From: Buchnera aphidicola (Brevicoryne brassicae)
GTDB taxonomy: Bacteria > Pseudomonadota > Gammaproteobacteria > Enterobacterales > Enterobacteriaceae
Assembly (NCBI RefSeq): GCF_005082825.1
Contig: NZ_CP034882.1
Location: 384,318 to 448,317, forward strand
DNA: 64,000 nt
Direction of reading: 5' to 3'
The notes below the pieces were generated by a model. The model was not told the DNA's origin. It made no database searches and saw nothing but the letters and a program-made list of their open reading frames with translations. Shown here one piece after another: positions 29,877 to 34,200 of the stretch. Position 1 is the stretch's first letter. Each line of letters opens with the position of its first letter. The position numbers and the translations under genes are program-made.

Positions 29877-31679
29877 TTAAACACTTCGACGACGAAAAAA
29901 AGATGATTTTAATTCATTTTTAGATGTATTAGATTTATTTATACGATTTTCAGAAAAACGACGATTGCTGCTTCTATCTTTACTAAATAGAGACCTATTA
30001 GACATTTTTCCTTCATATGTTCTAGGATCTCGTAATAACTTTATATTGATCAATTTATTTAATATTCTAGTACGAGTAAATTTATTTAATAGATCTTTAG
30101 ATAACCCTTTAGGCAATTCAATTGTAGAATAAGTAGAAAAAAGTTTAACATTACCAATATTACGACTATTAATATTTCCTTCGTTTGCAATTGCTCCGAC
30201 TATATGTCTTACTTCTATTCCATCATTACGTCCTATTTCAATACGATATAAATCTATATCTTTACTATCACGACGTGATCGATTATGACGACTGTTATCT
30301 TCACGTCTACGATCATCTTTTGAAAAAAAAGTATTTTTAGAAGAAGATGAACGTTTTAGTAAATCTGTTTTTATAATTAAAGGGCGTTCACCTTGAGCCA
30401 TTTTTAATAAAGCAGCTGCTAAAGTTTTTATATCTAAATCATCTGAAGAATATAATTTATCTAACAAAGCAGTATATTCATCTAAATCTCGACTTTCTAG
30501 TTGTTGTTGTACTTTTTTTGAAAATTGTTCAAGACGTCTTTGACATAACAACTCAATTTTTGGTAATTGAACTTCTTGAATAGATTGTTTGATAGTACGT
30601 TCTATATTACGTAATAAACGACGTTCACGATTTTCAACAAATAACAAAGCACGACCTGTACGACCAGCACGACCTGTACGACCTATACGATGTACGTAAG
30701 ACTCTGCGTCCATAGGAATATCATAATTAATAACAAAACTAATACGATCAACATCTAAACCACGAGCTGCAACATCTGTTGCAATTAAAATATCTAATCG
30801 ACCATTCTTTAATCTTTCTAATGTTTGTTCTCTTAATGCTTGATTCATATCTCCATTTAAAGCTGCACTATTGTAACCATTACGTTCTAAAGCTTCAGAT
30901 ACTTCTAAAGTTGCATTTTTAGTTCTAACAAAAATAATAGTAGCAGAAAAATCTTCAGTCTCTAAAAAACGAATTAATGCATCAGTTTTTCTACCATATA
31001 CCATCCAATAACTTTGTTTTATATCTGGACGTGTAGTGACATTAGATTTTATTTTAATTTCTTTTGGATTTTTCATAAACCGTTTAGAAATACGGCGTAT
31101 CGCTTCTGGCATAGTTGCAGAAAACAATGCAGTTTGATGATCTTTAGGGATTTTAGTCATAATTGTTTCTACATCTTCTATAAATCCCATCCGTAACATT
31201 TCATCTGCTTCATCTAAAACTAATCCATGTAAATTTGAAAGATTAAGAGTTCCTCTCTTTAAATGATCTAATAAACGTCCTGGAGTTCCTACAACGATTT
31301 GAGGTCCTTGTCGCAATGCACGCAACTGTAATTCATATCTTTGACCACCGTATAAAGGAAGTACATGTATTCCGATCATATATTTAGAAAAATCAGAAAA
31401 AGCTTCAGCTACTTGAACTGCTAATTCTCTTGTAGGAGCTAATACTAATATTTGAGGAGCTTTTAAATTAATATTAAGATTATGTAATAAAGGTAATGCA
31501 AAAGCAGCTGTTTTACCACTTCCAGTTTGTGCCATTCCCAATACGTCATGTTCTTCTAAAAGTAAAGGAATACAAGTTGCTTGAATAGGAGAAGGTTTAA
31601 CATATCCCATTTCAGTTAAAGATTGAATAATAAAAGGATTTAAACCAAGAAAAGAAAATGTGCTTTCAATACGAGTCAT
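29877..31679 (-). CDS. deaD: DEAD-box RNA helicase DeaD (CsdA)
   Basis: Unwinds RNA in ribosome assembly and, in E. coli, joins the degradosome in the cold. It is 600 aa (E. coli 629). Helicase motifs in order: [53 protein letters not shown]. The RNA-binding domain that follows has the block [10 protein letters not shown]. The tail is shortened and Arg/Ser-rich ([16 protein letters not shown]). The start matches E. coli MAEFETTFADLG, here [12 protein letters not shown]. An in-frame upstream segment with a stop is annotated separately. Confidence 0.97.
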
Positions 31680-31700
31680 GCAGTAGATATGCCTTTTAAG

Positions 31701-31727
31701 TTACAGTGGCCAGTCTACATAGCTCAT
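31701..31727 (-). promoter_or_regulatory. Upstream mini-ORF MSYVDWPL ahead of deaD
   Basis: ATG AGC TAT GTA GAC TGG CCA CTG TAA, ending 21 nt before the deaD start and in its frame. From memory, older E. coli DeaD annotations begin with an extra segment, MSYVDWPPLILRHTYYM. This region aligns with it codon for codon (MSYVDWPL, stop, LKRHIYCM), but one codon is TAA. Such conservation upstream of a start argues for a leader peptide or a translated regulatory segment. Confidence 0.65.
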
Positions 31728-32076
31728 GATGAAAATATTTTATTTATTCTCATTGAAAAGTGTGAACCGGCTCAAATGAAATGATTTAATAAATAAAAAA
31801 TTGATTTTTTTAATACCAAAAGTTTTATTTATGAGTTATTACTAATAATTTTTAGATATATAAATAACTTGTGTTATTTATAAAAACCACATTAGTAATT
31901 TATTAGAATTTATTTTTTAAAATTAAAAGTCTATTTTTATACAATAAAAATTATTAAACTAAAATATTTTTATAATATTTCTATCTATATGTTACTATTT
32001 GAAAAGATATAAATCTATATTTTATTAAAAAATGTTTTAACATTTTAAAAAAAAATATTAACTAGTAATAATTATA
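31728..32076. other. deaD leader and pnp-deaD spacer (nlpI deletion site)
   Basis: 349 bases without a gene; E. coli nlpI lies here. The part nearest deaD (to about 31790) is richer in G and C than the other spacers (GAGCCGGTTCACAC on the minus strand). This suggests a retained deaD leader, which is long in E. coli. The part nearest pnp holds a hairpin, annotated separately. No nlpI remnant is readable. Confidence 0.45.
32029..32046 (-). terminator. Possible pnp terminator
   Basis: Perfect inverted repeat AAAATGTT/AACATTTT (32029-32036 and 32039-32046), 31 nt beyond the pnp stop. On the minus strand it is followed by UUUAAUAAAAU. The stem is AT-rich and weak. Confidence 0.4.
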
Positions 32077-34200
32077 TCAGATAATGTTATTATTTATCGA
32101 TTTATTAGAAATGATAAAATTTTCTGTCTCTTTAATACTCAACCTCAAACGACCTTGACGATCTATTTCTAGTACTTTTACAGATATTATTTGATCAATT
32201 GTTAAATGATCAGAAACTTTTTCTACTCTTTTTTCAGAAATTTGAGAAATATGTACTAAACCTTCTTTTCCAAATCCAATTGAAACAAAAGCACCAAAAT
32301 CAACAATACGTGTAACTTTACCAGAGTAAATTCGCCCTACTTCAATTTCAGCTGTAATTTCTTCAATTCTACGGATAGCATTTCTTGCTTTTTCTTTAAC
32401 AGTAGCTGATATTTTTACTGTTCCATCATCTTCAATTTCAATTATAGTTCCTGTTTCTTCAGTAAGCATGCGAATAACAGAACCCCCTTTTCCTATTACA
32501 TCTTTAATTTTTTCAGGATTAATTTTTATGGTGTGAATGCGAGGAGCAAACTCAGAAATTTCAGTTCTTGATCTACTTAAGGCTTGATTCATTATATTTA
32601 AAATATGTAATCGAGCTGATCTTGCTGAATTTAAGGCTGTACGTATAATTTCATTAGTAATACCTTCTATTTTCATATCCATTTGTAAAGCAGTAATACC
32701 TTTTTCTGTACCAGACACTTTAAAATCCATATCTCCTAAATGATCTTCATCTCCTAAAATATCTGAAAGTAATACATATTGACTGCCTTCTTTTACTAAA
32801 CCCATAGATATTCCAGCAACAGCAGATTGAATAGGCACTCCAGCATCCATTAATGCTAAAGAAGCACTACATACAGAGGCCATAGAAGAGGACCCATTGG
32901 ATTCAGTAATCTCGGAAACTATTCTAATAGTATAAGGAAAATCTTCTAATTTAGGCATAACAGCTAAAAGACTTCTTTTAGCAAGACGACCATGACCAAT
33001 TTCTCTTCTTTTAGGTGATCCCACCATTCCTATTTCTCCAACTGAATAAGGAGGAAAATTATAATGAAACAAAAAATTATCTGTTCTATCTCCTAACAAT
33101 TCATCTAAATTTTGTGCATCTCGAGATGTTCCTAAAGTTACTGCAGCTAAAGATTGAGTTTCTCCTCGAGTAAATAAAGCAGAACCATGTGTTCTTGGTA
33201 AAACACCTGTACGAACATCTAATGCACGTATCATATCTTTTTCACGTCCATCAATACGTGTTTCATTATTTAATATTCGTTGACGTACAATTTTTTTTTC
33301 AATTTTATGTAAAATATCTTCTATTTCTGATTGATCTATATTTGAATCTTCGTTAAAAATAAAATTTATTATTTCTTCTTTAATAAAATTTAATTTTTCA
33401 GATCTTTCTTGTTTATTAAATATTAAATAAGCAGAACGTATATCTTTTTCTGCTAATTCTATTATTTTTAATTCTAATGCTTTATTAATTTCTGGATAAG
33501 ATATACTCCAAGGTAATTTGCTTGCTTCATTCGATAATGAACGAATATTATTAATTACTACTTGTTGTTGTTGATGTCCAAACATAATAGCTTCAAGGAC
33601 TTTTTCTTCATTTAATATTTTTGCCTCTGCTTCTACCATAAGCACAGCATTTTGAGTTCCTGAAATTACTAAATCTAAAGAACTGTGTTTCATATCATCA
33701 CTAGTAGGATTTAATATATATTGATTATTAATATAACCTACTCTAGCAGCACCTACTGGTCCATAAAATGGAATTCCTGATAAACTCAATGCTGCTGATG
33801 CGCCTATAATAGAAATTATATCTGGATTAATTTGTGGATTAACTGACACTACTGTTGCAATTATCTGAATTTCATTAAAAAAACTTTTAGGAAATAAAGG
33901 ACGAATAGGTCTATCTATTAAACGAGCAATTAATATTTCATTTTCACTTGGACGTCCTTCTCTTCTAAAAAAACCACCGGGTATGCGACCTGCAGCATAT
34001 GTGCGTTCTTGATAATTGACAGTAAGTGGAAAAAATTTTTGACCTAAATGTGTTTTTTTTTGTCCAACAACAGTTACAAAAACAGCAGTATCATCCATAC
34101 TAGCCATAACAGCAGCTGTAGCTTGTCGAGCCATTATACCTGTTTCTAAAGTAATCGTATATTGACCATATTGAAATTTACGTACAATTGGATTTAGCAA
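32077..34200 (-). CDS. pnp: Polynucleotide phosphorylase
   Basis: 3'-5' phosphorolytic exoribonuclease and degradosome subunit. It is 707 aa (E. coli 711). It has two RNase PH domains joined by an all-helical linker. The catalytic region in the second is [13 protein letters not shown]. The KH domain ([14 protein letters not shown]) and S1 domain ([21 protein letters not shown]) at the C-terminus are intact. It lies downstream of rpsO with a terminator between, as in E. coli. Its possible partner motif is kept at the end of RNase E in this window. Confidence 0.98.

Follow-up and report, generated by a model that had tools for sequence, protein, structure and literature searches.

The closest described system is the yrbN-deaD locus of Escherichia coli (b4685/b3162), in which yrbN, a gene of 26 codons, extends over the first 8 deaD bases in a different frame. 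DeaD of E. coli reportedly autoregulates through mRNA stability and Rho-dependent termination, and a long 5' UTR is said to be involved. In some other leaders, such as those of the ribosomal-protein S15 and L20 operons, start codons are engaged by long-range helices or pseudoknots. By analogy with these leaders, pairing across a loop to the start region may set ribosome access at the locus described here, which differs from them in having the start of an upstream ORF inside the loop and in that its second helix (P2) and a pseudoknot are candidates. With the account of E. coli DeaD autoregulation (Ojha and Jain 2020) it shares a regulatory leader of the same gene; by its title, that account concerns mRNA stability and Rho-dependent termination.

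The deaD leader in the window (the whole 64,000-nt stretch of Buchnera DNA that was analysed) resembles that of E. coli in its locus, in the 48-nt spacing between an internal ATG and deaD, in the presence of two conserved blocks, A and B, and in that the P1 and P2 pairings are both possible. It differs in that the yrbN frame of the window strain is broken by a spacer indel, with a stop well before deaD, and in the lack of any ORF of at least 50 aa in the interval from pnp to deaD, which in E. coli contains nlpI. The segment directly upstream of deaD is read here, with a probability of roughly 0.6, as the 3' half of a leader RNA that acts in cis on deaD, is common to the window's family, E. coli-like genomes included, and has been kept in Buchnera. 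The leader belongs to an already known kind, that of regulatory leader RNAs carrying an upstream ORF, and, judging from the sequences compared, it probably controls the amount of helicase made. A testable RNA structure is in this way offered for how a major cold-shock helicase may regulate itself. Among the papers listed in literature searches, no title or abstract opening described the P1 helix, and a term search in the main text of three Buchnera and symbiont papers (PMC8557413, PMC6867890, PMC3571970) returned neither 'deaD' nor 'csdA' as a whole word.

Conservation of the deaD leader

The deaD (csdA) gene occupies positions 29877..31679 of the minus strand and encodes a DEAD-box RNA helicase of 600 aa, with an orthologue in 36/36 genomes of the genus and a match to E. 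coli DeaD at E 2.7e-262. Upstream of it, the minus-strand codons from 31727 to 31680 read ATG AGC TAT GTA GAC TGG CCA CTG TAA CTT AAA AGG CAT ATC TAC TGC, that is MSYVDWPL, a stop and LKRHIYC before the deaD ATG at 31679, exactly as the preliminary description had it. The resemblance to E. coli K-12 that was quoted there was borne out by the actual sequence (MSYVDWPPLILRHTYY), which lies in the DeaD frame with an identical 48-nt spacing and aligns without gaps. The Shine-Dalgarno-like motif AAAAGG (31692..31697, minus strand), whose counterpart in E. coli is GAGG, is the putative ribosome-binding site of deaD; GAG is found at this site in 105/105 free-living leaders, a set chosen by locus ranges and not by named species.

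The segment is present in all 36 genomes of the genus, the window genome included. In a blastn search with 114 nt (31677-31790), 5375/5426 E. coli genomes were matched, 5373 of these 5375 with an identity of 60-80%; among the matches listed the identity was 77-78%, with E values from 2e-10 to 4e-12, and the matches were located under yrbN and deaD. The E. coli similarity of the segment is not due to chance. The gene annotated there in E. coli is yrbN, and its frame differs from that of MSYVDWP.

The conserved stretch exceeds the segment first noted, beginning near 31776, about 50 nt farther upstream. Two blocks could be delimited on the minus strand, block A (31744..31776; TTTGAGCCGGTTCACACTTTTCAATGAGAATAA), which is the 5' half of the leader element and is near-identical in E. 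coli, and block B (31680..31736), which reaches the deaD start and is defined by the identity over 36 Buchnera and by an alignment of diverse leaders (A1, see below). Over the 36 Buchnera, window strain included, mean identity to the window strain is 95.7% in block A and 96.3% in block B, against 61.0% in an upstream comparison region (-380..-120). Identity in Buchnera over about 90 nt of the leader amounts to 0.96, compared with 0.91 over the first 20 bases of deaD. Non-coding sequence is normally eroded in Buchnera. The motif GCCGGTTCACACTTTTCAATGA of block A occurs a single time in the genome with up to three mismatches allowed. Indels in the AT-rich spacer between the blocks place the upstream ATG in all three frames among Buchnera strains, and the blocks persist. 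Comparison of the sequences indicates that nucleotides are conserved here rather than a peptide.

The P1 helix

A total of 247 leaders were sought and 243 placed (all except L186, L213, L220 and L230), and one more (L076) was dropped for its masked bases. Of the 242 that were left 217 were unique, and 194 of the latter were usable for anchored pair tests: 118 from the free-living and order set, 36 from Buchnera and 40 from the set of small and other genomes. Alignment A1 consists of 82 leaders, after removal of six with low similarity outside P1 and of redundancy at 90%.

RNAalifold, run on 82 diverse leaders with no structure supplied, returned seven pairs and nothing else. They constitute P1, formed between the strand GCCGGUU (31765..31771, minus strand) within block A and the strand GACUGGC (31709..31715, minus strand) within block B. 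All seven pairs can form in 36/36 Buchnera. Compensatory variants are found in the relatives, where the two strands have changed jointly to GCUGG with CUAGC (L227, L234), to GACCGGUU with GACUGGUC (L193) and to AUCCAGUU with AACUGGAU (L194), and where an outer pair is C-G in L060.

Significance was judged against a tree-based null in which each column's own substitution count is scattered on the tree, deep branches too. Over the 194 leaders, 96.8% of P1 cells are paired as against 84.8% under this null (0/500), and P1 is fully paired in 90.7% of leaders as against 33.2% (0/500), a contrast that the null overstates because changes hit deep branches and the tree was built from the same alignment. 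Double changes are seen at 5/7 pairs where 2.0 are expected (2/500); the number of double-change cells (16 against 7.8, 54/500) is not significant, and at one pair three of the U-A cases were contributed by leaders that have otherwise lost P1 (L200, L216, L239). When P1 is slid to other registers, 3-56% of cells are paired. Within A1, nine compensatory cells are found in P1 against 1.3 in shuffles (0/500), and three of the seven pairs have changed on both sides, a count reached by 21/500 shuffles. Cognate P1 strands pair at -6.40 kcal/mol and swapped ones at -4.37 kcal/mol (0/2000, n=57); two control segment pairs gave no advantage in the same test (194/2000 and 1095/2000). In an unsupervised scan of the 22 varying six-pair helices of the E. 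coli leader, P1 came first and its one-base neighbour second, being fully kept in 10/25 and 9/23 variant forms, respectively, against a median of 9%.

Beyond the seven pairs, the bases ACA (31761..31763, minus strand) can extend P1 by pairing with UGU (31717-31719) across a C.A mismatch. Cells of this extension are paired in 93.8% of cases against 71.4% under the tree null (0/500), with no excess of double changes over that null (133/500). A P1 of eight pairs was tried as well and did no better than the null (cells 110/500, fully paired 292/500); therefore the pair outside G-C is not claimed. An unsupervised pairwise covariation analysis with APC gave no significant pair (best E 3.5), because the clade signal dominates. 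Taken together, comparison and covariation leave P1 well supported, and of the two possibilities raised in the preliminary description, a translated leader or an RNA element controlling deaD, the RNA element has gained support, its control of deaD being something that we infer.

A covariance model built from A1 with P1 found one place in the window genome at E <= 0.01 (E 2.4e-22), the next one having an E of 7.6. It matched 8/89 genomes of the order, always directly upstream of deaD, among them 5/5 of the window's family and three genomes of three other families, and among 77 genomes of the class it matched the window genome alone; in these order and class scans stricter filters may lose weak matches, part of the candidates was scored and the E values are rough. 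One of the genomes outside the family (L372) has, by eye, a perfect P1 and an ORF of only four codons. Neither the window from 31500 to 32300 nor the E. coli leader region (L001:4200-5600) gave a match to Rfam at E <= 1.

Pairing at the deaD start codon

A second helix, P2, is a candidate for sequestering the start codon and has modest support. Its strands on the minus strand are AUGUAG (31715..31720) and CUGCAU (31678..31683), the latter including the AU of the deaD start codon. The partner of AUGUAG is CUACAU in the relatives and CUGCAU in Buchnera, window strain included. By eye, the E. coli register fits the window strain solely with a G.U wobble. P2 adjoins P1 and shares bases with the P1 extension. 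Its cells are paired in 90.4% of cases against 72.9% under the tree null (1/500), double changes are not above that null (pairs 93/500, cells 138/500), and in the unsupervised helix scan it ranked 4 of 22, fully kept in 4/25 variant forms. One of its pairs has changed from G-C to A-U in seven rows of A1. A control segment beside P2 showed a weak advantage for cognate strands in the swapping test (91/2000), and a pairing of GCC with GAGGC over the Shine-Dalgarno site has a cognate energy of -4.21 kcal/mol against -3.88 kcal/mol (0/2000). On these comparisons P2 is plausible but unproved. By eye, both strands of P2 seem to have changed in L174 and L177 (to AUGUCA and UGACA), the clearest compensatory case for this helix.

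In nested folding P1 and P2 are mutually exclusive and close in energy. The difference G(P1)-G(P2) has a median of +1.3 kcal/mol (n=166), the window strain having a value of +1.3, E. coli one of +1.2 and 35 Buchnera one of -2.2 kcal/mol. In unconstrained folding the predicted open probability of the deaD start codon has a median of 0.018 in the free-living leaders (n=117), where it is mostly closed, and of 0.646 in Buchnera (n=36), where it is mostly open; the value for the window strain is 0.117, which is reached by 12% of 51 other starts of the window. Compared with shuffles, closure of the start codon is moderately unusual, on average only (mean fraction 0.10, 20 leaders), and overall folding of the leader is not unusually stable (mean z -0.57, 20 leaders against shuffles).

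The mechanism that we propose for the leader RNA would work as follows. P1 would close a loop of about 48-49 nt containing the yrbN start codon, and P2 would fold next to it over the deaD start codon, the two being conformers close in energy, either alternative or pseudoknotted, that may determine how readily ribosomes reach the deaD start. Where yrbN is translated, in the free-living relatives, the ribosomes would unwind both helices on their way through block B and stop at the deaD start or shortly before it, and deaD would thereby be coupled to yrbN; the balance between P1 and P2 could be shifted by an RNA helicase or by temperature. In Buchnera the peptide would be dispensable, its frame being shifted in several lineages including the window strain, and the RNA pairing would have been kept. 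P2 as a structure of the cell, the coupling, the gating of translation and the effect on the level of DeaD we infer from comparison and folding. A bolder form of the same idea is a bistable switch read by its own helicase, in which P1 would free the deaD start and P2 or a pseudoknot would close it, the choice being resolved by yrbN translation or by DeaD, with Buchnera, despite the loss of most of its regulators, keeping a self-sensing loop shifted to the open side and the peptide lost in several lineages. This form is tentative and less likely than not.

Somewhat less likely still is that P1 serves mRNA stability or processing, as an RNase site or a protection against decay, or that it is the site of a trans-acting RNA or protein, and is not a gate on translation. 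Such a role would agree with the autoregulation of E. coli deaD reported to proceed through mRNA stability and Rho-dependent termination. However, the conserved bases reach the ribosome-binding site and the start codon of deaD, which fits translation better without being decisive.

The yrbN frame and other readings of the conserved DNA

The leader RNA proposed here has to be weighed against the ORFs that it carries. In the family, of which 120 genomes were fetched and 119 scored, 94/119 genomes have a yrbN ORF that reaches into the deaD start, and in 117/119 the ORF ends within -16..+17 of it; in 21/119 it terminates immediately ahead of the Shine-Dalgarno-like site, at -16, -12 or -11. The suggestion of a translated leader is thus retained, now for the yrbN ORF, whose frame is not that of MSYVDWP. 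The ancestral yrbN ATG of the window strain opens an ORF (31724..31753, minus strand) that reads MRINKIFSS* and is shifted by one spacer base. Its TGA overlaps the ATG at 31727-31725 and ends at 31724 (-44), so it does not overlap the deaD start, and the remnant of the yrbN frame (31696..31740, minus strand) is out of frame with its ATG; the stop of this remnant is the one used by the ORF in 19/36 Buchnera. The upstream ORF of Buchnera ends at -16 in 19/36 strains, as it does in 11/119 family genomes, at -21 in 9/36 and at -43 to -47 in 7/36, the window strain among the last; the end at -47 in L003 reflects a doubled ATG. Because a stop before the Shine-Dalgarno-like site recurs in the family, the TAA in the yrbN frame of Buchnera need not mean decay. 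One Buchnera strain of the 36, L026 (G019), has an upstream ORF that passes the deaD start (ending at +14), because its TAA has changed.

In the free-living leaders the yrbN frame is stop-free from -67 to -26 (105/105), a mild openness, since as few stops were found in 24/300 runs of the tree null and in 13/300 permutation runs. The position of the stop suggests a coupling of deaD via yrbN, and the absence of stops in the frame weakly suggests the same; in free-living relatives yrbN is probably coupled to deaD. RNA-seq values of one Erwinia amylovora study (PMC9371280) show a joint rise of yrbN (log2 3.65) and of a DEAD/DEAH helicase gene that is possibly deaD (log2 3.84). In two reduced genomes, L224 (G455) and L228 (G356), the yrbN ORF continues into deaD without a change of frame and P1 has 7/7 pairs; by their sequences, these genomes could make DeaD with a YrbN extension.

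P1 and the ORF can be told apart in genomes that have lost the latter. P1 has 7/7 pairs in the seven Buchnera with an early stop of the upstream ORF. In the small and other set, the ORF or its ATG is lost in 23/40 usable leaders under a narrow rule (ATGA followed by two bases), which scored L141 as 'no ATG' although an ATG is present, and in 20 if any ATG is accepted. At least 6/7 pairs of P1 are kept in 13/23 of these leaders without the ORF (11/20 under the wider rule) and in 14/15 of those with it (16/18). P1 is therefore able to outlast the ORF; in strongly reduced genomes the two tend to be lost together, as far as the sequences tell. The pairing in L206 may be due to chance in AT-rich DNA, and L190 and L195 score low because they are misaligned, the pairing being visible by eye. 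In the reduced genome L195 (G394), also by eye, the yrbN region is deleted and the loop is short, with GCCAGUU and GGCUGGU remaining. Buchnera L037 (G024) has a TAA within deaD, ATT in place of the ATG of block B and a TGA right before the deaD start; its deaD may be decaying, though P1 still has 7/7 pairs.

It is improbable that the DNA has been conserved for a functional small protein, YrbN, of which the window Buchnera would carry a fresh pseudogene. YrbN is annotated in E. coli, its frame is free of stops in the 105 leaders mentioned, the ORF end at -16 is common to Buchnera and family genomes, and in block B the second codon positions are the least changed. However, the substitutions expected of a protein are not seen. 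In the 105 free-living leaders, the changes in six block B codons number 12/1/10 at positions 1/2/3 (TTA 5/0/1, TGT 4/0/1, AGA 1/1/0, CTG 0/0/0, GCC 0/0/5, GCC 2/0/3), third positions thus being no more changed than first ones (10 against 12), and the GAG codon preceding them changed 6/5/0 times. The check on substitution pattern that the preliminary description had called for hence found no greater freedom at third positions of the conserved block. Codons -67..-49, with 37/55/64 changes, show little amino-acid constraint. Neither stretch resembles ordinary protein constraint in its sequence changes, and block B appears to be held as nucleotides, though the fewest changes fall on its second positions. 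Moreover, most of block A is situated upstream of the ORF, yet the block is equally conserved, the spacer indels of Buchnera give all three frames without loss of the blocks, and P1 is kept in Buchnera whose ORF is broken. On the leader-RNA reading, yrbN would exemplify how constraint on an RNA can shape a gene annotated for a small protein, and Buchnera would represent a natural mutant series in which the frame of the upstream ORF is broken and the RNA is intact.

A signal at the DNA level is very improbable. The promoter-like sequence TTCACA-18 nt-TAAAAT (window 31766-31737, minus strand) matches the consensus at 10/12 positions in the window strain, but the spacer after TTCACA differs in length and sequence among Buchnera strains, and the two strands together carry 11 promoter-like sites where shuffled versions of this AT-rich stretch give 5.0 (sd 2.6), which makes such sites common here. 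Nor would a promoter predict compensatory changes between blocks about 50 nt apart. It was rejected for its variable spacer and the frequency of promoter-like sites.

The peptide MSYVDWP, whose conservation had been put forward, did not hold up. Its ATG is absent in 71/117 scored free-living and order leaders, is followed by an open frame into deaD in just 41/117, and is present with a stop or out of frame in 5/117; in the window strain the ORF MSYVDWPL* (31701..31727, minus strand, deaD frame) is closed by TAA, and a stop falls within the last 15 codons before the deaD start in 36/36 Buchnera. Its sequence marks the peptide as a shadow of another frame. A DeaD N-terminal extension (MSYVDWPPLILRHTYYM...) interrupted in Buchnera has next to no probability and was rejected, for although no stop interrupts the E. 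coli frame between that ATG and deaD, and an older annotation of E. coli DeaD was presumably longer, it is already contradicted by the missing ATGs and by the stops in L040-L042 and all 36 Buchnera, and the current E. coli annotation starts downstream.

Two further features of the neighbourhood were recorded. The pyrB-like and pnp ORFs (window 27961 and 34200) are called from TTG, which may be real starts or mechanical choices. In the spacer between pnp and deaD, a second, unusually conserved stretch at window 32000-32019, which may be a promoter, the end of the pnp transcript or something else, has a mean Buchnera identity of 87% over 20 nt.
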